The notes beneath the pieces were generated by a model that worked only from the letters and a program-made list of their open reading frames with translations, had not been told where the DNA came from and did no database searches. Position numbers and translations under genes: made by a program. A stretch of DNA of 28,941 bases. Source: a virus. The stretch spans positions 76,163-105,103 of the IMG/VR virus record IMGVR_UViG_3300049595_003752; one strand, given 5' to 3'. Shown one piece after another: positions 1,725 through 28,913 of this stretch (its first letter is position 1; the number at the start of each line of letters is the position of its first letter).

Positions 1725-3900
1725 ATGGCCTGTAATCTCTATTCAGTTATACTACCACCCTCCAGTACTAATCAATACAACATTTTAGATTGTTCTGGTA
1801 ATACACAATCAAAATTATATTTACCATTCGGTGGTGGTGAAATTAAATTTTGTGCTAACGAAATTGTAGAATTTACAGGAGCCACACCTTCTGTAACTTC
1901 AGGGGCTTGTCAAAGTAATTGTACATGTTTTACAACTAATTTATTAACAAATGAAAGTAATTTAACTAATTTAACTTATGTAGATTGTAACAACAATTAT
2001 TATGTTGATAAGGGACCTGCGTTTGCTCCTGATAAACAAATCTTAAATGCTCAACCAGGTGAATTTTTTGATTTTTGTGCTTTATATGTTTCTGTAAACA
2101 CCAGAGGTTGGTCTGTTACTAATAATGGTGATTGTGAAACTGGTTGTACTTTTTGTCGATGTATAATTGTTAGTAATACAACCAGCGAACTGACCGAAAA
2201 TTTTACTTATACTGATTGTAACGGTAGCCCAAATTTAGTCACACTTAATCCTAAAGAAACAATCACTTTTTGTGGGTTAGATACAGATATTACTGTTGCA
2301 CAGTCTACCAACAATTTAGCGGTTAACTACGGTAATCAATGTGTTGATGATCCAGGTGCTGATTATCCTTTTAAATGCCCTTGTAAGTGTACAACATTTT
2401 CTAATGACACACAAGCGTATAATGATGATGTTTATTTACTTTATACTGACTGTGATAACAACACCAACACAATACAACCAAATATAAGTACAAAATTTGA
2501 AACTATTACTTGTGTTCAAAATTTTGTGTCCATAATTCCTGGAATTCCGAATGATAGACCAGAACCAAATGCTTGGTCTGCAACATATCAATCAGATTGT
2601 ACAGATGGTTCGTGCCCTTGTTATTGTTATAGTATTTTCAACGATGGACCTGAATTTTCACTTGGTTATGTAGATTGTGGTGCGACTGGAACAACAATTC
2701 ATACTATTTACAATTCCTTTTTCGGTATAAATACTTCTTTTTGTAGTCCTTCAATTATTACTCAACAAGACATAACTGAATTATCAACCAACAGCAAATT
2801 ATACACAGGTAATACTTGTTCTAGTGGTAGTTGTGTTTGTAATTGTTATAGTTTGACAAATAATAATGGTTTTAGAACACAACCTAAATATATCGATTGT
2901 AACGGTAATTTACAAACTATATCATTAGAAGATGGGGAAACACAAAAAGTTTGTAGCATTGGTTTAAGTTATAGTGATACTGAAAATATAGATATAATAA
3001 ATGAAGGTCCTTGTATTGATGGTGAATGTCCATCCACACCAATAACTGGTGATTGTACTTGTTATTATGTTATATCAACAAATGGTCTTGAAACTATAGA
3101 TGTTTCAATAGTAGATTGTGACAATATTCCCAATGTTTTAACTTTAACAGAAGGTAAAGGTTTTTGTGCGAAAAGTTATATTTCAGCTAGTGAAGTGGGT
3201 AGTTTAATAGGTAGGAGTAATGGTTTATGTACAGGGGGTGAATGCCCTCAAAATGTTAATTGTTACAATATAGATGCTGGTGGAAGTTCAGATGTTCAAA
3301 CATATTATATTGATCCCGAAGGAATTGTTAGTTTAATATCAGAACCTGGTCCCGTTAGTTTTTGTGCAAAAGTTGTTTTAACTGAATATGATAGTACGGG
3401 AAATCCTGTCGGTAATGAACTGGGTACTGTTACAAATACAGGTGATTGTATTTTTAACGAAACTGAAGGTCTTTATAACTGTCCGGCACCTTGTTATTGT
3501 CTTTATTCATTCAATTCTACGTTTGTTGATTACATTAACTGTAATTACGAATCTGTAACTTTATCTTTAAGTCCAGGATTTAATAAAATTTGTGCACAAT
3601 CCGTGATTAGTTCTGATGGTACTTTTTTTGATAGTGGGTTACTTTGTGATAATAATAGATGTCCTAATTACTGTTGTAATTGTTATACTATTACTAATTT
3701 AGGGTCAAGACCATTTATCGGTTTTACTTATTTAACATGTGATTTAACTATGTCAGAACCGTATGATATTCCGGCAAGTGAATCTTTAACAGTTTGTGCA
3801 TTAAACGTACCTCCTGATGCTAATGGAGGGGCAGCCAGATATAGCGTGACTTTAAACGGACCTTGTTACAATGGACAATGTGTAGATACAATGTCAATTC
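1725..3900 (+). repeat. Tandem cysteine-rich protein modules (diverged)
   Basis: About ten modules are recognisable in translation through the recurring CxCY / YxDCNG / FCA / GxCxxGxC framework. DNA identity between modules is low, so the expansion is old or under diversifying selection. Boundaries are approximate. Confidence 0.75.
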
Positions 3901-8935: not shown

Positions 8936-8945
8936 ATATTTATTT
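8936..8945 (+). promoter_or_regulatory. ATATTTATTT motif, putative phage promoter
   Basis: It ends 3 nt before the ATG at 8949. The local sequence GATATTTATTT-NNN-ATGAGAAATA is shared with the minus-strand gene starting at 22944. It must restart transcription after the terminator at 8880-8908. Confidence 0.55.
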
Positions 8946-8948
8946 GAT

Positions 8949-11720
8949 ATGAGAAATATATTTTTGTTAGAAGAATTACTTTTAGAAAATAGAATAGATG
9001 ATGTTAAAAAGAAATATCCTAACGTACCTTCTGAAGTTATAGAAGAGTTTGCTAGTAATGACCCTTCTGGTACCAACAAATATTTGGATTGGATGGTTTA
9101 TACCAAGTCTATAGGTTTTCCCGGTATTGGTACGTCAAATGTTATTAAAAATATAAATTTATTTCATAAAAACATTAACAAATTAACCAAAGAATTTTTT
9201 GATGAATTTATTAAAGAAAATAAATTTGAATGGTTACTTACTGATAACTCACCTGTAGCCAAAACTTTTCAAAATATTTATAAAAGTCCTAAAGATATTA
9301 ATACTTACAAAGATTACGGTATTGCTTCAGTAATTTTTAAATCTGTTGATAACGTGTTATCTAAATCTGAGGTTAAAAAATTAGAAGCAAATGTTTTATA
9401 CAACTCTGATGATTTATTAATCATGATTCCTAAATCACATAGAGCATCTTGTTACTACGGAGCTGGAACTAAATGGTGTACAACAAATAAAGAAAGTGAT
9501 AATTATTTTAAAAATTATACTAATAAAGGTACTTTAATTTATGTTATAAATAAAAAAGAACCTGAAACAAACCCTTGGTATAAAACTGCCTTTTTAATTG
9601 AAAAAGAAAATGGTAAAGTTCAAGCCTATGATGCTCCAGACCATCCGACCGATATAAATATTGCGGCAGAAAAATTAGGTGATAATTGGGGAATTATCAG
9701 AGACGTTATTGTAGAATATCTTTATAAAAATGAATTAAAAGGTATTGAAAACCTTTATTTTGGACAAGATTTGATTGCTTGGTTAGAATCCAAAGATATT
9801 GATCCACTTAAAACTTTAAATTCAAATCAATTAATTGAAAAATTGGGTCACAATACTTTAATATCTTATTTAAATAAAAGGGGTATTAATATATACGAAT
9901 ATCTACCGTATAGACAAATATTAGAAATTTATTCGATTCAAAAAATATGGGAAGGTTATAAAAATATCGGTATTAACCCGTTAACCAAAATGTTTATCAA
10001 ACGTAATGACGCAGACGATTTAATTCAGGCAATAAAAAATAAAACCATTTCTTTAGATGAGTTTTTACATTTAAGTTCTGACCCAAAATTTTTAGAATCT
10101 GTTTCAGGTGGTGAAGTACAAGGAACTAAAAACATTTTTACAATAATGAATTTGTTTTTTGGAAGTAGTAGACCGGACGATTGGATGAGTTCTAGAATAG
10201 CACCAGCCTTAATAGAATTATTTAACAATGATGTTGATTTGATATTTGGTTACGCTAAAAACATAGGAGTAAACTTATTCCAAGCTTTAGATGTTAGGGG
10301 TATGAACCATCTTTTAAATAAAAAATTTGATTTTGAAAATGCTTTAAAATATACCTTACAAAATAAAGATTATTTAAAAAGTACTTTAGTTAATTACGGT
10401 TTCCCTAAAAAAGAAGTTATTGAGTATCTTTCTAAACAACCCAACGGAATAGAGTTATTTAAAGAATTAGTTGACAAGGACTTAATAAAAGATTTAAGGA
10501 TAGAAGAAGTTTTACCGTTTTTTAAAGATGACAGAAAAGAAGTTTTTTTATTTTGGTTAAAATCTAAATTTAGAGGCAGGTTTGATGTTGAGGATGTTTT
10601 GGATGCTGCAGGTCCCGAAATAGGTAAAGTTTTTTCAAACATAGAATCTTTTGAAGCTTTTATAAGTGAAAATTATTTACACAAAGATTACGATATTTTA
10701 AAATCTGTTTCCATAAAATCTTTATGGAAAAGTTTTTTCAACAAAGATTTTTATCAATTATATAAAACGTTTTTAGAAAAAGGTAGAGCTAATGAACTAG
10801 ATACTTTGATGTTGATAAAGGCTTATGAAGATGCTCCTGTTGAAGAGGGTACTGGGTTAAAAAATATTGTTTTAGAAAGAGCTCATTATGAATTAAAAGG
10901 CGATAACAGATGTAAATTAGAAACTAGAGACGGTGTTGATTATATCATTTTTGAAGATTTGGACCGTGTTTTAGGGTTATTTGATGATAATGCTGATTAT
11001 TACAGTGTCCTATCAAGTAGTTTTAACCCTGATACTTATGAAAATTTTTCTGATATAAGTTATTTTTTAGACAATGAAATCACAATTAAAGTAATTAAAG
11101 ATTACCTAATGGATAATTTTAGAGAAAAAAAGGTGGGTTTAAATTTAGACTGGTTGGAAGATTTTGATGATTTAGGTGATAGAATTAAAATAGACGACAT
11201 CAACGATAAATTTTATTTTAAATTATATGATGAATTAATTCAGGGGATGTCTGGTTATAATATATTAGTATTAGTTGAAAACTCACCTGAATTAAAAAAA
11301 CTTAAAGAAGTAATTGAATCGTCTTACAGTATTGTTTATAAAGATTTACTTAGGAAAGAACTTAAAGATGAGTTGACATCGAAAATGGAAGGTATTTTTG
11401 GTGATGATTTTATGCGAACTAAAAAAATTCAAAATAAATATAAAGAACCGAAAACTGTTTATGAATTTAGGTATGATTATTTAATGGATGATATTATCAC
11501 TTTTGCTGATGATTTTGTTTTTTATGAAGAAGAACTACCCAATTCGGTTTATGATTTAATTGTATCGTTAATGGAGAATAATAAAGGTAGGTTTGACGGT
11601 ACTGTTAGTTTAGATTTAGAATATGTTATGGAAATTTGGTCCCCGTATGAAAATCAGGAATTGTTTTTAGAAACTTTTACCAATGAACTATATCAAACCC
11701 TAAGTAAATCCGAAGATTAG
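8949..11720 (+). CDS. Large GxGTKWC-motif phage protein (paralog of 28155-28913)
   Basis: This is a 923-aa protein. The first ~230 residues are related to the 252-aa minus-strand protein at the right end of the window: both have NDPSxTNKYLxxMV, then a KSxVKKxE helix, then Y(G)xxTKWC (YGAGTKWC at about 170-177 here), then a YFxxYTxxG(T/V)L segment. This TKWC module is widespread in phages but has no function that I know. The remaining ~690 residues are helical and acidic, possibly repeats, with no motif I can name. The N-terminus MRNIFLLEELLLENR carries LLE-type processing sites. The start is fixed by an ATATTTATTT motif 3 nt upstream and by the homology. It stands alone between a terminator and the terminase promoter motif. 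A role as an internal or tail-associated protein is a guess. Confidence 0.75.
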   Translation: MRNIFLLEELLLENRIDDVKKKYPNVPSEVIEEFASNDPSGTNKYLDWMVYTKSIGFPGIGTSNVIKNINLFHKNINKLTKEFFDEFIKENKFEWLLTDNSPVAKTFQNIYKSPKDINTYKDYGIASVIFKSVDNVLSKSEVKKLEANVLYNSDDLLIMIPKSHRASCYYGAGTKWCTTNKESDNYFKNYTNKGTLIYVINKKEPETNPWYKTAFLIEKENGKVQAYDAPDHPTDINIAAEKLGDNWGIIRDVIVEYLYKNELKGIENLYFGQDLIAWLESKDIDPLKTLNSNQLIEKLGHNTLISYLNKRGINIYEYLPYRQILEIYSIQKIWEGYKNIGINPLTKMFIKRNDADDLIQAIKNKTISLDEFLHLSSDPKFLESVSGGEVQGTKNIFTIMNLFFGSSRPDDWMSSRIAPALIELFNNDVDLIFGYAKNIGVNLFQALDVRGMNHLLNKKFDFENALKYTLQNKDYLKSTLVNYGFPKKEVIEYLSKQPNGIELFKELVDKDLIKDLRIEEVLPFFKDDRKEVFLFWLKSKFRGRFDVEDVLDAAGPEIGKVFSNIESFEAFISENYLHKDYDILKSVSIKSLWKSFFNKDFYQLYKTFLEKGRANELDTLMLIKAYEDAPVEEGTGLKNIVLERAHYELKGDNRCKLETRDGVDYIIFEDLDRVLGLFDDNADYYSVLSSSFNPDTYENFSDISYFLDNEITIKVIKDYLMDNFREKKVGLNLDWLEDFDDLGDRIKIDDINDKFYFKLYDELIQGMSGYNILVLVENSPELKKLKEVIESSYSIVYKDLLRKELKDELTSKMEGIFGDDFMRTKKIQNKYKEPKTVYEFRYDYLMDDIITFADDFVFYEEELPNSVYDLIVSLMENNKGRFDGTVSLDLEYVMEIWSPYENQELFLETFTNELYQTLSKSED

Positions 11721-17117: not shown

Positions 17118-18269
17118 ATGAGTAAAGTTTTTTTAGAATACATTTGGTTAGATGGTAATAGTCCCCAAAATCTAAGAAGTAAAACAAAAGTTGTTGACAG
17201 TACAGATATACTTGAAAGAGATGGTAATTCTAAACAAGGTTACCCTGAATCCTATCCACTTTGGAGTTTCGATGGCAGTTCAACAAAACAAGCCGGTGAG
17301 GAATTTGGTTTTGATGGTACTGATTGTGTTTTAAAACCTGTCTGTGTTGTTAGTGACCCTTTTAGAAGTAAAAGTTCATCTTACCTTCACAAATTAGTTT
17401 TTTGTGAGGTTTTTAACCCTGACGGTAAAACACCACATAAAACAAACACAAGAAGTAAGTTAAGGGATTTATTAGCCGACCTTAAATTCAAAGAGTATGA
17501 CGCAAATCATTCAGAAGTTCCTTGGTTTGGGTGGGAACAAGAATACGTTATAACACACGCTCCAGACCCGAATAACCATTTTAGGTATGGTGGAGGATTT
17601 CCTTTAGGTTTTTTAGCCGGTGATTCAGGTAAACCAAGACCACAAGGTGATTACTACTGTGGTGTCGGTGGACTTAACGTTATTGGTAGAGACATTGTAG
17701 AAGAACATCTTACAAAATGTGCAGAAATAGGGTTAGATATAGGTGGAATTAATGCCGAGGTATTGATAGGTCAATGGGAATATCAAATAGGCCCTGTGAC
17801 TGCTTTAAACGGTTCTGACCAATTATGGATTTCACGTTACATACTTGAAAGAGTTGCTGAGAAAAAAGGTTTAGGAATTTCTTATCACCCAAAACCTGTT
17901 AACGGTGATTGGAATGGTAGTGGTTGTCACGTAAACTTTTCAACCAAAGAAATGAGAGAAAAAGGTGGAATTAAAAAAATTCTTGAATCATGTGATAAAT
18001 TGTCTGAAAGACATAAAGAACATATTGAAGTTTACGGTGAGTTTAATGAAAAACGTTTAACTGGTAAACACGAAACATCTAGTATGGAAAAATTTAGTTT
18101 TGGTAATTCTGATAGAGGTTCAAGTATTAGAATACCTGTACATACATATACCAACGAAAGGGGTTATTTCGAAGATAGAAGGCCAGCGGCTAACTGTGAC
18201 CCATACAAAGTTTCTAACGTAATGATTGAAACAGTATTTGATAAGGCTGGAATAACAGTGGAACAATAA
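17118..18269 (+). CDS. glnII: Glutamine synthetase, type II (eukaryote-like GSII)
   Basis: This 383-aa protein makes glutamine from glutamate, ammonia and ATP. It is the short GSII type rather than the ~470-aa bacterial GSI. The beta-grasp start LEYIWLDG and LRSKTKVVD is present. Catalytic and binding motifs are intact: WFGWEQEY (137-143), GQWEYQIGP (218-226), NGSGCHVNFST (266-276), RLTGKHET (313-320) and FEDRRPAANCDPY (351-363). It appears functional. A terminator lies just upstream and a bidirectional one after the next gene, so this two-gene cassette needs its own promoter in 17042-17117. I see only an A-rich leader there (ATAATAACAAAATT). It is an auxiliary metabolic gene inserted between the portal and protease regions. 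It could raise nitrogen assimilation or glutamine for nucleotide synthesis during infection. Confidence 0.96.
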   Translation: MSKVFLEYIWLDGNSPQNLRSKTKVVDSTDILERDGNSKQGYPESYPLWSFDGSSTKQAGEEFGFDGTDCVLKPVCVVSDPFRSKSSSYLHKLVFCEVFNPDGKTPHKTNTRSKLRDLLADLKFKEYDANHSEVPWFGWEQEYVITHAPDPNNHFRYGGGFPLGFLAGDSGKPRPQGDYYCGVGGLNVIGRDIVEEHLTKCAEIGLDIGGINAEVLIGQWEYQIGPVTALNGSDQLWISRYILERVAEKKGLGISYHPKPVNGDWNGSGCHVNFSTKEMREKGGIKKILESCDKLSERHKEHIEVYGEFNEKRLTGKHETSSMEKFSFGNSDRGSSIRIPVHTYTNERGYFEDRRPAANCDPYKVSNVMIETVFDKAGITVEQ

Positions 18270-19443: not shown

Positions 19444-20976
19444 TTAAATAGAAATTTCTTCTACTTTTCCTTCAACTTCAAAAGGATATATTGGAGACCA
19501 TTCTGTAATATCGTTTGACATTACGGGTTTACCACCTTCCATTCTATTAACAGCAATTGTAATATGTGGGATTTTATTTTGTGTTTTAATTTCGGATTCC
19601 ACCTTAACAGCCACAACTTTGTCTGTTTGTCCTATATGAGTTACTAATAAATCAAAGGGTTGGTCTAAAAGAGGTTTAGACTCTTCTTTAAGTGGGCCCA
19701 TATTGATGGTCATGTGATGCCCAATAAATTCCCAATCTTTTGGGTGCGGAATATATTTTTTTAATAGTTTTCTTGATTCTTCATTAAGAATTACGCCTGA
19801 ATAACTTACCTTTTTTTTAGATTCATTCATAAGTTTTAAAAATTTTTCTTTTTCTATTCTTTCTTTTTCTTGGCCAATTTCACGACCTTTAAAACCTTTT
19901 TTTATTAGGTCATCACCTGAAGTTGTTATTTTATATTCTAAAAAAGTGTCTACAATTTTATTAGGTATTTTCATTAAGTTACTAAATGTTCTTAGTGTTT
20001 CTTCAGATATCCCGATAACTTCAAATCTTTCACGTAATTTATAAACATCTGTCCCGTATTGTAAAAACTTAATTAAGAAACTGATTTCTTTTACTTCATC
20101 AACTGTATACTTAAGCTTGTTAACTAATGTTTTTTCAACCAATGTAGGCTCGTTACTTTGTAGTAAAACAGCTATAAGTACGTTAGCCTCTTTAGTCTCA
20201 ATTAAAGGTTCTGTTGTAACTACAAGTCTACCAAATATCCAGTCCCAAAGATTGTACTTAGTTATTAATTGTGTAAAATACCCTACAGACTGTGCTTGTT
20301 TAATACCTTTAAGAAATTCATCTCTAATACGTTCTTGTGATATTGGAAGTCCGTTACCACTAATAGTGGTTTTATCTTTACTTATAGCACTTTCAATGTC
20401 TTTATCCACATCGGAACCAACACGGGCGGCAAATCTAAGTGCTCTAAGTACACGTAGTTTATCCTCATCGAAACGCTCTACTGCTGAACCAACTGTTCTA
20501 ACCACGTTTCTTTCAATGTCACCAATACCACCAACCAAGTCAACCACTTCACCTTTATCTATATCATAGAAAAGAGCGTTGATGGTTAAATCACGACGCT
20601 TAACATCTTGGTCAATTGTAGTAAACTCTACAGAGTCAGGTCGTCTACCTTTACCAATGTCTTTACGGAAAGTAGCTATTTCATATTGACCATCTTCCGT
20701 GACTACGTTAACAATCCCAAATTGTTCACCCAATTCAATTGTACGGTACATGTTTAGAATAGACTTAATTTCTTCGGGTTTAGCGTTAGTAGCTAAATCA
20801 AAATCTTTAGGTTCATTACCATAAAGTAAATCCCGCACAGCACCACCAACAACATATAACTCATAACCGTTTTCCTTGAAAATTTGGTTCATTTTCAATA
20901 CGGAATTAGGTAGGTCCATGTGTATTTTCTTTCTTACCACTTCTTCTTTTAAGATTTTTCGAATCAGGTTCTTCAT
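19444..20976 (-). CDS. tRNA nucleotidyltransferase (CCA-type) fused to 2H phosphoesterase
   Basis: This is a 510-aa fusion. Residues 21-380 look like a class II CCA-adding enzyme/poly(A) polymerase head and neck: VVGGAVRDLL (42-51), DFDLAT (58-63), RRDLTINAL (127-135) and EDKLRVLRALRFAARVG (171-187). Residues 388-510 carry two HxTx motifs, HMTI (421-424) and HITI (471-474), the mark of 2H phosphoesterases, which open cyclic phosphates at RNA ends. Together they suggest tRNA end repair: clean the 3' end, then restore CCA. The canonical enzyme would start near residue 20. The extra MKNLIRKILKEEVVRKK resembles a capsid-targeting peptide with an LKE cleavage site, so the enzyme may be packaged and injected. 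The first ATG is 3 nt after ATATTTACAT, which supports the long form. Confidence 0.88.
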   Translation of the reverse strand: MKNLIRKILKEEVVRKKIHMDLPNSVLKMNQIFKENGYELYVVGGAVRDLLYGNEPKDFDLATNAKPEEIKSILNMYRTIELGEQFGIVNVVTEDGQYEIATFRKDIGKGRRPDSVEFTTIDQDVKRRDLTINALFYDIDKGEVVDLVGGIGDIERNVVRTVGSAVERFDEDKLRVLRALRFAARVGSDVDKDIESAISKDKTTISGNGLPISQERIRDEFLKGIKQAQSVGYFTQLITKYNLWDWIFGRLVVTTEPLIETKEANVLIAVLLQSNEPTLVEKTLVNKLKYTVDEVKEISFLIKFLQYGTDVYKLRERFEVIGISEETLRTFSNLMKIPNKIVDTFLEYKITTSGDDLIKKGFKGREIGQEKERIEKEKFLKLMNESKKKVSYSGVILNEESRKLLKKYIPHPKDWEFIGHHMTINMGPLKEESKPLLDQPFDLLVTHIGQTDKVVAVKVESEIKTQNKIPHITIAVNRMEGGKPVMSNDITEWSPIYPFEVEGKVEEISI

Positions 20977-20979
20977 ATA

Positions 20980-20989
20980 ATGTAAATAT
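20980..20989 (-). promoter_or_regulatory. ATATTTACAT motif, putative phage promoter
   Basis: The minus strand reads ATATTTACAT, then TAT, then the ATG at 20976. Spacing is the same 3 nt seen at 8949, 22944 and 26561. One base differs from the common form. It is divergent from the motif at 21003-21012. Confidence 0.45.
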
Positions 20990-22237: not shown

Positions 22238-22471
22238 ATGGATAATAATGTAGCAAAATACTTTTTAGTAAAGGTAGAATTTGAAACCATTAATGAAAGT
22301 AATGGTAAACAGAAAAAAATTAGAACACAATATCTTGTGGATGCAATGACTTGTACTGAGGCTGAAGCTCGTACTCGTACTTATTTAAAAGATTCTGTAA
22401 TGGATTATGAAATTGTAAGTACAACAAAAAGTCCTATTGAAGACGTTATTGAAGTACTTGTAAAGGCTTAA
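22238..22471 (+). CDS. DUF4494-like small protein
   Basis: This 77-aa protein contains KYFLVKVEFE, then TQYLVDAMTCTEAEARTRTYL. The YLVDAxxxTEAEAR pattern is what I know from DUF4494 proteins of Bacteroidota and their phages. It is shorter than the bacterial members, as I recall them, and lacks their C-terminal half. No function is established for the family. The leader is A-rich (AATAATAAACAAATG) and has no Shine-Dalgarno site. The gene follows a terminator, so it needs its own promoter in 22200-22237, where I cannot identify one. Its stop overlaps the stop of the convergent SprT-like gene in a shared TTAA. Confidence 0.7.
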   Translation: MDNNVAKYFLVKVEFETINESNGKQKKIRTQYLVDAMTCTEAEARTRTYLKDSVMDYEIVSTTKSPIEDVIEVLVKA

Positions 22472-22944
22472 TGACGATATTGTTTTGGTAAACCTACTTT
22501 GTTAGCAACCTTTTGGAAAACCCCACCATGGTTTCTAGCTTCAGTATCTTCCAATCCGTGAGCGGCATGAATTAATTCGTGTTTAATAATATCTTCAACG
22601 TATTCAGTATCATTAAGGGCCTTGGGATGAATCTTCATTATTCCAAGGTCTTTTTTATTTTCAGGATGTTTAAATGAACCTATCTTTCCGGCTTTAATTT
22701 TATCATCCACTTTAACAACAATGTTATCGTCACTAACAGGTTCTTCACCTGTAATTTCTTTATAAGCTTTTTCTACCTTTTTTTTAATACGGTCCTTCAT
22801 GTTGTCAACTTTTTTAGTTTCTTTTGGAAACTTGGAATTCTTTGTTGCCTTTTCCTGAGCATAGTCAACTTTTCTCATAAAATCATTCGATTCTAAATGA
22901 TCCTCAATAAATTCTCGTAATATTTTTCTGATATTATTTCTCAT
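22468..22944 (-). CDS. SprT-like zinc metallopeptidase with capsid-targeting-like N-terminus
   Basis: This 158-aa protein has HELIHAAHG (122-130), a zinc HExxH site, followed by NHGGVF (138-143) whose His is the likely third ligand, as in SprT/WSS1-like peptidases. The N-terminal MRNNIRKILREFIED is near-identical in style to that of the tRNA-repair fusion (MKNLIRKILKEE) and ends in LRE, a candidate prohead-protease site. The frame is open back to 23019, but the ATATTTATTT motif at 22957-22948 lies directly upstream of the tandem ATGATG. The local sequence matches the 8949 start, so I choose ATG 22944 (22947 is equally possible). It may be an injected peptidase acting on host or DNA-bound proteins; the target is unknown. 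Confidence 0.82.
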   Translation of the reverse strand: MRNNIRKILREFIEDHLESNDFMRKVDYAQEKATKNSKFPKETKKVDNMKDRIKKKVEKAYKEITGEEPVSDDNIVVKVDDKIKAGKIGSFKHPENKKDLGIMKIHPKALNDTEYVEDIIKHELIHAAHGLEDTEARNHGGVFQKVANKVGLPKQYRH

Positions 22945-22947
22945 CAT

Positions 22948-22957
22948 AAATAAATAT
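22948..22957 (-). promoter_or_regulatory. ATATTTATTT motif, putative phage promoter
   Basis: The minus strand reads GATATTTATTTATGATGAGAAATA, nearly identical to the 8949 start region. The motif ends 0 or 3 nt before the start codon. It is divergent from the motif at 23022-23031. Confidence 0.55.
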
Positions 22958-23021
22958 CCCAATTTTTTAATAAAAAAATTACTTTTTTCTCTTGACTTGT
23001 TGCACTTTACTGTAGGCAAAC

Positions 23022-24668: not shown

Positions 24669-26465
24669 ATGGGATATTTATTAAAATCAGGTGAGGTTGG
24701 TAATATCGGATTAAAGCACCAAAAAGCTATCCGTGAGGCAACTGTAAACAAATGGGAATCTTTAGGATTCTTAGAAGGCTTAGAAGGCCATATCAGAGAA
24801 AACATCGCTTTGTTATATGAAAACCAAGCGTCAGTTCTTATCAATGAAACTACCACTGCTGGTGGTGTTGGTACACAAGGAAGTTCTTCTGGTTCTTTCG
24901 AAACAGTTGTATTTCCTATCGTAAGACGTGTGTTCTCTAAATTATTAGCTAACGACATCGTTTCTGTACAAGCATTAAACTTACCTATCGGTAAATTATT
25001 CTACTTCGTACCTAAACGTTCTGAGAGAATTGATGATTCAGCTTTCTTGGCAGGTACAAATGGTGGTACATCTAAACATGGTGAGCCTATCGTTACAACT
25101 TGTGTTGATGCAGCTAGTAACTGTGATTTAACATCATACAGTGCTTGTTTAAAGAATCTTTATGATGCTTTCTACAATGACGGTCTTTTTGATCAATCAA
25201 AAGGTATGATAACTTTAAAAGTTGTTACAGGTTCTACTTGTGTAGTATGGACAGCTTGTACTAATGGATTTGAATTTGGTGCAGGAAAAACTCCAGCAGC
25301 AACTGATGGTTCATTACGTCACCAAATTATTGAAGTTACAGGATTTAATTCAACCGGTGCTGGTCGTTTAATCACTCCAGACGGTAATGAAATGGATACT
25401 GAATCTTTCTTAGCATCTTTAACTGTTTCTGCAACTGCAAACATTCTTGACCCAGCTGGTCAAACAATTTACAGTAACGGTGATTCAATTCCTTTCCGTG
25501 TGGTAACACAAAAATATGGTAAAGGTATTGTTCAGTACGGTGATATCTGTACAGCTGATGGTAAACTTTATATTGAAGTTGACTTAACTCACCCAACTTG
25601 TGTAACTTGTGGTACTAACACATTTGATGGTTACATTGGAGCTGATTATACTGGAACTACTTGTTCTGAAATCGCTGGTTTCATTTCTTGGAGACAATAC
25701 TCTGACCTTGAAGCTGAATCAGAAATGGGAGAAGTTTCTTTCGAACTTCAATCTGTAACTGTATCTGTTACTGAAAGAAAATTAAGAGCTACTTGGACTC
25801 CTGAATTAGCACAAGACGTTAGTGCATTCCACAACATCGATGCTGAAGCTGAATTAACAGCATTATTATCTGAGCAAGTTGCAGCTGAAATTGACCGTGA
25901 AATCTTAATCGATTTACGTAAAGGTGCGGCATGGCAATTACGTTGGGATTACAACGGTTGGAAGCGTTTACCAAACAACAATGGTTACACTCAAAAAGAT
26001 TGGAACCAAACTTTGATGACAGCTATCAACCAAATCTCAGCTCAAATCCATAAATCTACATTAAGAGGTGGAGCTAACTTTATCGTTGTATCTTCTGAGG
26101 TATCAGCAGTATTCGATGATTTAGAATATTTCCACGTATCTAACGCAGCTCCTGAGCAAGATCAGTATAACATGGGTATTGAAAGAGTAGGTTCATTAAG
26201 TGGACGTTACACTGTATACCGTGACCCTTACGCTCCAGCATATTCAGTTATCATTGGACACAAAGGTAAGTCATTGTTAGACACTGGTTACATCTACGCT
26301 CCATACGTACCGATGCAGTTAACACCTACAATGTACAATCCGTTTAACTTCGTACCTGTTAAAGGTATCATGACTCGTTACGCTAAAAAAATGGTGAACA
26401 ACCGCTTTTACGGCCATATCAGAGTTGACGGTTTACGTACTTTTGATGTTAGAGAATTACGTTAA
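24669..26465 (+). CDS. gp23: Major capsid protein (T4 gp23-like)
   Basis: This 598-aa protein is longer than T4 gp23 (521). The best match to gp23 is KLRATWTPELAQDVSAFHNIDAEAEL and the following LSEQVAAEIDREI (about 371-412). Further matches are GRYTVYRDPYAP, YIYAPYVPMQLTP and the C-terminal MTRYAKKMVNNRFYGHIRV. A prohead-protease site fits at INE60 before TTTAGG, close to the T4 site at residue 65. All nine cysteines lie between residues 145 and 332 (145, 152, 160, 191, 197, 294, 311, 314, 332), in the region where gp23 proteins carry a variable insertion domain. Codon use is richer in C-ending codons than neighbours, as expected for high expression. The leader is A-rich without Shine-Dalgarno. 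A strong terminator follows. Confidence 0.96.
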   Translation: MGYLLKSGEVGNIGLKHQKAIREATVNKWESLGFLEGLEGHIRENIALLYENQASVLINETTTAGGVGTQGSSSGSFETVVFPIVRRVFSKLLANDIVSVQALNLPIGKLFYFVPKRSERIDDSAFLAGTNGGTSKHGEPIVTTCVDAASNCDLTSYSACLKNLYDAFYNDGLFDQSKGMITLKVVTGSTCVVWTACTNGFEFGAGKTPAATDGSLRHQIIEVTGFNSTGAGRLITPDGNEMDTESFLASLTVSATANILDPAGQTIYSNGDSIPFRVVTQKYGKGIVQYGDICTADGKLYIEVDLTHPTCVTCGTNTFDGYIGADYTGTTCSEIAGFISWRQYSDLEAESEMGEVSFELQSVTVSVTERKLRATWTPELAQDVSAFHNIDAEAELTALLSEQVAAEIDREILIDLRKGAAWQLRWDYNGWKRLPNNNGYTQKDWNQTLMTAINQISAQIHKSTLRGGANFIVVSSEVSAVFDDLEYFHVSNAAPEQDQYNMGIERVGSLSGRYTVYRDPYAPAYSVIIGHKGKSLLDTGYIYAPYVPMQLTPTMYNPFNFVPVKGIMTRYAKKMVNNRFYGHIRVDGLRTFDVRELR

Positions 26466-26490
26466 TCGTATTATACTCTATAAATTTAAA

Positions 26491-26515
26491 AGGGTGGTTT
26501 TTACCACCCTTTTTT
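26491..26515 (+). terminator. Rho-independent terminator after major capsid gene
   Basis: The stem AGGGTGGT/ACCACCCT with loop TTTT is followed by a T-run. Confidence 0.93.
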
Positions 26516-26547
26516 ATGATCTATTTATAATAAACGTTAATATGGGT

Positions 26548-26557
26548 ATATTTATAT
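26548..26557 (+). promoter_or_regulatory. ATATTTATAT motif before HNH fusion gene
   Basis: It ends 3 nt before the ATG at 26561. A weaker CTATTTATAA lies at 26521-26530. The 16 bases 26548-26563 recur exactly at 27238-27253. Confidence 0.52.
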
Positions 26558-26563
26558 TATATG
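26548..26563 (+). repeat. 16-bp direct repeat flanking the HNH segment, copy 1
   Basis: ATATTTATATTATATG is identical to 27238-27253. Both copies end in an in-frame ATG. Confidence 0.9.
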
Positions 26564-27493
26564 GGAAAGAAAAGAATTGAAATACCTGAAGATGTTTTAT
26601 TAGAAATGGTAAGATTATATAATGAAGAATATGTTGGTACCCCATCATTGTCAGATAGATTTGGTTACCATAAATCTATTATATTAAGAAGTTTTAAAAA
26701 CAAAGGTGTTGTCTTAGGTCCATCTGGTCGTAAATGGACTGGTGGTAGAGAGATTGCTGATAAAAAATGGAGAGAAAAAAATAAAGAAAAATTATCCGAA
26801 TATCATAAAGAATGGTCAGAAAAAAACCGAGAATATTTACGTGAATATCATGCCAAATGGCGTGAAGTAAATCGTGAATCATTAAACGAATATAAAAGAC
26901 ATTACGAAAAAACCAAAAAAGATTCTGACCCAGCTTATAAATTGGCTTGTTACACCAGAACTGCCATCTATACTTGTTTAAAAGAAAGAAATGTTGATAA
27001 ATATAAAAATACTTTTGATTTATTACCTTATACGTTGGAAGAGCTGATTCAACATTTGGAACTTAGATTTCAAGAAGGTATGTCGTGGGATAATTATGGA
27101 AGATGGCATGTTGATCACATTAAACCAATGGTTTCTTTTAATATTAAAGAACCGACTGATAAAGAATTTCAAGATTGTTGGTCTTTAAGTAATTTACAAC
27201 CATTATGGGAACAAGATAATTTATCCAAAGGTGGTAGATATTTATATTATATGCCAAAGAACTATATACCATACGATCTAGCCTTAAAATTGAATGAAAA
27301 GGGTTATAATGTATCCACTCATGCTTATTATAACATCTATAATAAACATATATTTATTCACACACCTGTCAATCATAATGAAGCTATATGGGCACCAACT
27401 TTTGGTGAGACTATTGATTGGTTCAAAGAAAATTACGATATTGATGTACAACCAAATGTAGAATCTATTGAAGAGGCTTTGAATAAAATATGA
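26561..27493 (+). CDS. HNH homing endonuclease fused to a small phage protein domain
   Basis: This is a 310-aa protein. Residues 1-55 look like a helix-turn-helix (TPSLSDRFGYHKSIILRSF). Residues 65-125 are a charged helical spacer of EKNxExxxEYHxxW repeats. Residues about 184-226 are the HNH site: RWHVDHIKPM, then CWSLSNLQPLWEQDN, with catalytic residues intact. From residue 231 (MPKNYIPYDLALKLNEKGYN) the chain changes to what looks like a small stand-alone phage protein ending in WAPTFGETIDWFKENYDI, a pattern I know from many Bacteroidota phages. The internal ATG at 27251 has its own perfect ATATTTATAT motif 3 nt upstream. I infer a mobile HNH cassette that landed in frame ahead of that gene. 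The stop overlaps the next start (ATGA). Confidence 0.85.
   Translation: MGKKRIEIPEDVLLEMVRLYNEEYVGTPSLSDRFGYHKSIILRSFKNKGVVLGPSGRKWTGGREIADKKWREKNKEKLSEYHKEWSEKNREYLREYHAKWREVNRESLNEYKRHYEKTKKDSDPAYKLACYTRTAIYTCLKERNVDKYKNTFDLLPYTLEELIQHLELRFQEGMSWDNYGRWHVDHIKPMVSFNIKEPTDKEFQDCWSLSNLQPLWEQDNLSKGGRYLYYMPKNYIPYDLALKLNEKGYNVSTHAYYNIYNKHIFIHTPVNHNEAIWAPTFGETIDWFKENYDIDVQPNVESIEEALNKI
27238..27253 (+). repeat. 16-bp direct repeat, copy 2; possible internal promoter and start
   Basis: ATATTTATATTATATG, identical to 26548-26563. Its ATG (27251) would start an 80-residue product in the same frame as the HNH fusion. Confidence 0.75.
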
Positions 27494-27807
27494 AAGATTT
27501 AATTCTTAAAATACTAAAAGAATCGGAAGATGAATTTGATTGGATTGAGTCACCTTTCGGTATTGACGATAATCTAATGAACTATCTAATCCAAAATTAC
27601 CGTGTTGGGGAATATAATGACGTGGCAAAAGAGTTCTTAGGCATTAAATACGTGATGGTTGATGATAAAATGTACCCACTTGAAGGCCATAAAAAACAAT
27701 TAACTAATAAAATCTATTGGGAGGTTGTTGATGAATTTCCTAACATGAACCAACCTGTTTTAAGAAGAACAATTAAAACTTTTTTAAACAATATCACTAG
27801 TAACTAA
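27490..27807 (+). CDS. Small hypothetical protein with capsid-targeting-like N-terminus
   Basis: This 105-aa protein begins MKDLILKILKESEDEFDW. The first ten or so residues match the IRKILKE-type peptides of the tRNA-repair fusion and the SprT-like peptidase, with an LKE cleavage site. The rest (DNLMNYLIQNYRVGEYNDVAKEFLG and KKQLTNKIYWEVVDEFP) is a compact alpha/beta sequence I do not recognise. It is coupled to the HNH fusion gene by an ATGA overlap. Its 3' end overlaps the convergent minus-strand gene by 24 bases. It is a candidate packaged protein on the strength of its N-terminus only. Confidence 0.7.
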   Translation: MKDLILKILKESEDEFDWIESPFGIDDNLMNYLIQNYRVGEYNDVAKEFLGIKYVMVDDKMYPLEGHKKQLTNKIYWEVVDEFPNMNQPVLRRTIKTFLNNITSN

Positions 27808-28154: not shown

Positions 28155-28913
28155 TTAACCTTTATAAGTATCGTCTTTGATGCCTCTTTCTTTAGCTAAT
28201 TCCTTATTGGTCTTACCTTTAAGAGTTGTATTAACCACTTTCATAACATCTTGTGGTATAATCTCCATTAATTCCATCATACCTACAGCTGTAACTGGAA
28301 TATCTTTAGAATCCCAAATTGTGGTTGCTGAATGACCTGTTTTGGTTTTGTCATAGTGAAAAGCCACCTTAGAAAAGATGTTATCACGAGTTTGTTCTTC
28401 TTTGATTGATTTGTCAATCACAAACACAAGAACACCATTCTCAGTGTATTGGTTAAAATACTTTTTAAAGTCATTTTGGTCGGAAGAAACACACCACTTA
28501 GTTGACTTACCGTAAACATTAGAACTACGAGAAGTAAGTGGTTGGAGTACTACAAATCTGTCGTCTTCGTGTACAGTAATAGTTTCAAATTTCTTAACTT
28601 GACTCTTAGTCACTTTTTCACGTGCCAATTTAATTGTGTCAACAATTTCTTGGTTAGAACCATAAGAGTAGATATCTTTATTTTCTAAAAGATTTTTATC
28701 AGAAAGTTCTTCAAATTCTTTTACAATATCAAACATTTCTTTAAATGTATTTGACTTTAATTCTTCTTTAAGCCAATCCACCCAAGATTCTGCTTGTTTA
28801 ACCATAAACGGTAAGTATTTATTAGTACTTGAAGGATCATTTTTAGCCAAAATTTCAACTAAATCAATAACAAATTTTGGGTTCTGTTCTTTAAGGTCTT
28901 TCTTTTTTGCCAT
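28155..28913 (-). CDS. YGxxTKWC-motif phage protein, paralog of the 8949-11720 N-terminal region
   Basis: This is a 252-aa protein. NDPSSTNKYLPFMV (25-38), KSQVKKFE (103-110), YGKSTKWCVSS (134-144) and YFNQYTENGVLVFVIDK (152-168) line up in order with the first ~230 residues of the 923-aa protein. The second half contains a FSKVAFHYD strand and a helical tail. I know of no function for this phage family. Unlike its large paralog, it has a host-type promoter (TATCTTTG at 28941-28934) and a solid terminator. It forms a single-gene unit likely expressed early or middle. The N-terminus MAKKKDLKEQN has an LKE, but it lacks the amphipathic helix of the capsid-targeting-like peptides. Confidence 0.78.
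   Translation of the reverse strand: MAKKKDLKEQNPKFVIDLVEILAKNDPSSTNKYLPFMVKQAESWVDWLKEELKSNTFKEMFDIVKEFEELSDKNLLENKDIYSYGSNQEIVDTIKLAREKVTKSQVKKFETITVHEDDRFVVLQPLTSRSSNVYGKSTKWCVSSDQNDFKKYFNQYTENGVLVFVIDKSIKEEQTRDNIFSKVAFHYDKTKTGHSATTIWDSKDIPVTAVGMMELMEIIPQDVMKVVNTTLKGKTNKELAKERGIKDDTYKG

Follow-up and report, generated by a model that had tools for sequence, protein, structure and literature searches.

The locus studied here raises the question of how an HNH endonuclease came to be joined in frame to a small phage protein, with the same short repeat at the start of both parts. The window, that is, the whole stretch of DNA analysed (28,941 nt), corresponds to positions 76163 to 105103 of the 105,103-base IMG/VR virus record IMGVR_UViG_3300049595_003752 and contains T4-like head genes coding for a terminase, a portal protein, a prohead protease and a gp23-type capsid protein. 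The gene for the T4 gp23-like major capsid protein (24669-26465, plus strand; Pfam PF07068, E 2.7e-69), whose product was used to fetch 80 relatives, invariably adjoins the HNH gene on its left side. Between the two, an intrinsic-terminator-like hairpin, GGGTGG...CCACCC followed by a T run, can be read from the sequence at 26490-26515 (plus strand), and a like hairpin with a T run is also found 3' of the capsid gene in relatives. Further downstream on the plus strand, a single open reading frame of 310 amino acids (26561-27493) runs through an HNH coding part of 230 codons (26561-27250) and an 80-amino acid part (27251-27493). The ATG at 27251 lies in the HNH frame, and the junction reads AGATATTTATATTATATGCC, with no stop left. 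The frame ends in ATATGA, and its TGA shares bases with the start codon of the next gene, which encodes 105 amino acids (27490-27807, plus strand), in the form ATGA.

The HNH part matches phrog_1035, a family of endonuclease VII-like proteins, over residues 77 to 229 (E 6.2e-14). It shares with these proteins the HVDH...N...N core, in which HVDH is encoded at 27107-27118, and the catalytic motif is intact, as H183, D185, H186, N211 and N220 are invariant across 13 aligned relatives. Compared with the phrog_1035 proteins, the window protein additionally carries an N-terminal helical, HTH-like part, which is common to the HNH relatives encoded after capsid genes, and the 80-amino acid part, which is unique to its lineage. 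Two comparison sets were used, one of relatives found by the capsid protein and one of relatives found by the HNH sequence. All 80 loci of the latter set have the HNH gene 3' of the capsid gene, at a distance of 93 to 156 nt, and in 78 of them the protein stops near residue 228, without the 80-amino acid part; the remaining two, L166 and L168, have a different domain. Among the capsid relatives, the presence of the HNH gene is sporadic (16 of 69, plus the window); its distribution over a capsid tree with 70 rows is scattered and requires 12 changes, of which well-supported branches force at least 10. On this tree, L015 and L060 are the two nearest relatives of the window and group with it in a single clade (support 100/99). 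All three possess the HNH gene; within the clade, the 80-amino acid part is restricted to the window lineage. Judged from this distribution, the presence of the HNH gene in the clade is older than the fusion, and the stand-alone form is ancestral. We infer that the HNH gene is a free-standing mobile gene with a recurrent site behind the capsid gene, which would spread by homing.

Other proteins are also encoded at this site. In L060 (5138-6553), the post-capsid protein combines the HNH nuclease with a Mom-like DNA-modification domain (PF25680, E 1e-20; phrog_1384, E 6.5e-22), and L166 and L168 (HNH match 3001-3675) likewise encode such a fusion of nuclease and modification domain. In five of the 69 capsid relatives (L018:7976-9568, L045:8043-9635, L027, L043 and L079), the position is occupied by another nuclease. 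The L018/L045-type nuclease belongs to phrog_3339, which is named homing endonuclease, and shows weak matches to an MTES_1575-type nuclease and to GNAT/Mom-like domains.

The repeat itself, the 16-mer ATATTTATATTATATG, occurs in exact copies at 26548-26563 (copy 1) and 27238-27253 (copy 2), as had been described in a first-pass annotation of this DNA, and the similarity reaches 22 of 24 nt when the copies are extended. An exact direct repeat of at least 16 nt was found between positions 25500 and 28941 in only two of 300 dinucleotide-preserving shuffles; across the whole window, however, repeats of this length often arise by chance (34 of 60 shuffles). Two more near-copies with one to two mismatches are located at 20974-20989 on the minus strand and at 8936-8951 on the plus strand, and each of them ends at the ATG of another gene. 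Both copies share the form (G/T)ATATTTAT, which was further traced across the genome. Of the 132 predicted genes, 33 have ATATTTAT in the 60 nt before their start, compared to a mean of 3.0 and a maximum of 9 in shuffled sequences, and the density of this core on the sense strand is 4.2 per kb upstream of genes versus 0.085 per kb inside genes. The box of copy 1, TATATTTAT, lies at 26547-26555 and that of copy 2, GATATTTAT, at 27237-27245, both on the plus strand; the latter form precedes 15 genes, where 0.3 would be expected. In both copies, the gap between the box and the ATG is 5 nt, which is also the commonest spacing in the genome. Using a matrix built from 30 other sites, with both copies left out, copy 2 ranked 9th and copy 1 37th among 210,742 genome positions. 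The suggestion of the first-pass annotation that the repeat carries a promoter motif and a start thus agrees with the enrichment of the box upstream of genes and the high rank of both copies. On the basis of these motif data, the repeat is best described as two instances of one putative promoter-plus-start pattern, and the copies are non-random because they are instances of a genome-wide upstream box, not because of the repetition itself. The identity over 16 bases is more than the box alone needs, and some recombination between copy 1 and copy 2 may have taken place.

The box, which would presumably be read by a phage factor, is distinct from the host consensus TAnnTTTG, and the latter forms a second, separate class in the genome (19 genes versus 5.7 expected). 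The existence of this class suggests that the phage infects a member of the Bacteroidota. No clear host-type -33 box was detected upstream of copy 1 or copy 2. In Flavobacterium johnsoniae, transcription starts 4 to 5 nt after the -7 element (PMC6847099); if this geometry holds for the phage, transcripts from copy 2 would begin 1 to 2 nt before the ATG at 27251 and would be nearly leaderless. The late box lies 4 to 5 nt before the ATG at many genes of the genome, and with a start-site spacing as in Flavobacterium, many late mRNAs would be nearly leaderless as well.

The relatives provide separate roles for the two copies. Among 55 distinct relatives (counted as HNH 3'-end types), 47 have a TATTTA-type box ahead of the HNH start, and copy 1 is therefore regarded as the putative promoter and start of the HNH gene itself. 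Copy 2, in turn, overlaps the HNH codons for Arg-Tyr-Leu, and in several relatives the HNH protein ends with Arg-Tyr-Leu, whose codons, AGATATTTA, are the box. L163, L164 and L172, which are among the nearest stand-alone HNH relatives, have the junction AGATATTTATTAATATGA, where the box resides in the last HNH codons and the TGA stop overlaps the start codon of the following gene in the same way as the end of the fused frame does in the window. Elsewhere, the box is found in or just past the HNH stop, e.g., as TGATATTTAT in L195, L209 and L211. In total, 20 of 52 distinct ends have a box between positions -25 and +45 relative to the HNH stop, compared to 0 of 54 in each of four control stretches inside the HNH gene and one to three of approximately 50 further downstream. 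These counts indicate that the putative late promoter of the downstream gene regularly sits at the HNH 3' end, and there is strong motif evidence that a putative promoter of the next gene is embedded in the HNH coding sequence.

The 80-amino acid part begins with (M)PKNYIPYDLALK and resembles a stand-alone phrog_12005-like family over residues 1 to 68 (hhalign E 2.1e-11); a search with the family profile recovered it in the open frame of the window (hmmsearch E 8.6e-8). The methionine at 27251 aligns with the start of the family (M-x-x-E-F-I-P-Y-E-x-A-L), in accordance with the earlier proposal that 27251 marks the real N-terminus of a small phage protein. Dozens of phage contigs encode members of this family on their own, and the genome of the window possesses a stand-alone paralogue (G000:46393-46782). 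The window part has the same start and the same YxxAL and AP...WF core as the small phage proteins of phrog_12005 and phrog_25117; however, it is shorter (80 versus around 120 to 150 amino acids) and forms the C-terminus of a nuclease reading frame. It is thus not stand-alone in the window, where a longer frame ends with it, though it has its own start and looks like a complete small gene. The fold of the 80 residues was predicted with high confidence (pLDDT 89); a comparison with solved structures gave no match, and the viral matches were all weak, the best being to unnamed phage proteins (E 1.3e-3). No family was found in a Pfam search, and an NCBIfam match to cas4 (E 0.05) was far below the cutoff and was dismissed as chance. 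In a model of the whole fusion, the C-terminal part was poor (pLDDT 37 to 56), so this model is uninformative on the question of the fusion. Taken from the motif and the family alignment, a putative internal promoter and a genuine N-terminus at 27251 are well supported.

The fusion was found only in the window record and in contigs from two other IMG/VR metagenome records, which are 99.8% identical over 4.3 kb. Searches with the 80-amino acid sequence, the downstream gene and the exact junction revealed no fused relative beyond these three near-identical contigs, and a profile search of the fetched capsid and HNH loci yielded none either. According to the first-pass annotation, a fusion shared by all relatives or a C-terminal region that never occurs alone would speak against its reading, and relatives with the 80-amino acid protein alone directly after the capsid gene would speak for it. 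The fusion is not conserved and the family is found alone, but among the fetched relatives it never lies directly 3' of the capsid gene.

How the two parts were joined can be explained in several ways. The first-pass annotation assumed that the HNH cassette had inserted at the start site of the 80-amino acid gene and duplicated it, thereby generating the direct repeat, and the two 16-nt copies do exactly flank the HNH coding part. However, copy 1 is the conserved putative promoter and start of the HNH gene, which also occurs in relatives without the 80-amino acid gene, and copy 2 begins with the Arg-Tyr-Leu codons of the HNH gene, the same sequence as in stand-alone HNH genes. The HNH gene moreover predates the fusion in the clade of the window, L015 and L060, and none of the fetched relatives has the 80-amino acid gene directly behind the capsid gene. 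The relatives' HNH promoters, HNH ends and the capsid tree thus contradict an insertion with target-site duplication, which is very improbable and was rejected. An artefact of assembly or sequencing, in which a stop was lost or an indel arose at the junction, might be considered since a short indel and substitutions separate the window junction from that of the closest stand-alone relatives; as three assemblies share the same junction, this is exceedingly improbable.

It could also be argued that the 310-amino acid fusion is the selected product, with the 80-residue fold as a captured accessory nuclease domain and the internal box and ATG as leftovers. The frame is open in three assemblies, and the close relatives L060, L166 and L168 have a different, Mom-like C-terminal domain on the same HNH nuclease. 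On the other hand, copy 2 is among the best late-promoter matches of the genome and has the commonest spacing, Met 27251 is the normal start of the family, and one in three frames would be in phase by chance, with about seven codons from the conserved HNH end to the methionine. We consider this explanation unlikely; the Mom-domain fusions in L060, L166 and L168 make the capture of domains worth bearing in mind.

The reading that we favour, with a probability of roughly three in four, is that the 3' end of a mobile HNH gene constitutes the late promoter of the next gene, and that the 80-amino acid gene came to lie there in frame, with no stop between. Accordingly worded as a sequence of steps, a free-standing mobile HNH gene would occupy a recurrent post-capsid site in T4-like phages that probably infect Bacteroidota, with copy 1 as the late-type promoter from which it is read. 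The Arg-Tyr-Leu codons at its end would at the same time serve the next gene as a late promoter (copy 2). In the window lineage, an 80-amino acid gene of a normally stand-alone phage family would presumably have arrived at this promoter. With its ATG in phase with the HNH gene and no intervening stop, the HNH gene would be read on into the 80-amino acid part. Two products would be expected, a 310-amino acid fusion from the HNH start and a free 80-amino acid protein, for which a nearly leaderless late transcript would begin approximately 1 to 2 nt before 27251. A more far-reaching version, in which the HNH 3' end serves as a joint for the repeated capture of phage genes as nuclease domains that are made both fused and free, seems quite unlikely. 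The captured domains would then be the 80-amino acid phage family in the window and the Mom-like DNA-modification domain in the L060 lineage.

Several other genes of the window deserve mention. A phage-encoded glutamine synthetase (17118-18269; PF00120, E 7.6e-18) is located between the portal and protease genes, and L015 contains a gene (549-1628) whose start is similar to that of this enzyme. The protein encoded at 19444-20976 on the minus strand has a poly(A) polymerase/CCA-adding head domain (PF01743) and in another part weakly matches a tRNA-ligase phosphodiesterase domain. At 28155-28913 on the minus strand, a 252-amino acid protein with a weak PcfJ-like match is encoded, which has paralogues at approximately six more places in the same genome (L008, L009, L011, L012). 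A short N-terminal leader, e.g., MKNLIRKILKE(E/S), often followed by (D)EFDW, is common to unrelated proteins, among them those encoded at 27490-27807, 19444-20976 (minus strand) and 22468-23019 (minus strand) of the window and at L015:8588, L015:8937, L255:435 and L256:2501. The pattern [KR][ILVK][ILV]xE is about 10 times denser in residues 1 to 20 than past residue 50, in an unthinned set of homologues that includes the capsid rows. The shared leader might be a capsid-targeting leader that is cut by the T4-like prohead protease.

In phage T4, segD adjoins the capsid gene 23. Downstream promoters are embedded in several free-standing homing endonuclease genes of T4, namely segG/gene 32, segA, segE, mobB and mobC, and such embedded promoters favour the retention of the nuclease (PMC2988022). 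The arrangement of the HNH gene and the 80-amino acid gene resembles the one of T4, as a free-standing nuclease gene lies in an intergenic position beside an essential late gene and a putative downstream promoter is found within the nuclease coding sequence. Unlike in T4, the box of the window is made up of the final codons of a nuclease gene that lacks a stop and continues in frame into the downstream start, so that the fusion joint falls together with the start and the putative promoter. Judged from the sequence, this is a modest new twist on the T4 arrangement. The locus also resembles nuclease genes at boundaries of genetic exchange in having a nuclease gene beside the capsid gene and variable genes beyond, a likeness of gene layout alone, as the study concerned covers nuclease families other than the HNH family of the window (PMC10448857).

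If the favoured reading is true, the mobile nuclease would be hard to delete, since the promoter of its neighbour is carried in the nuclease gene. The welding of the nuclease to its neighbour in one step would represent a simple route by which homing endonucleases may gain new domains. For a large, uncultured group of T4-like phages, it would furthermore define a late-promoter box that can be tested, together with late genes that are nearly leaderless.
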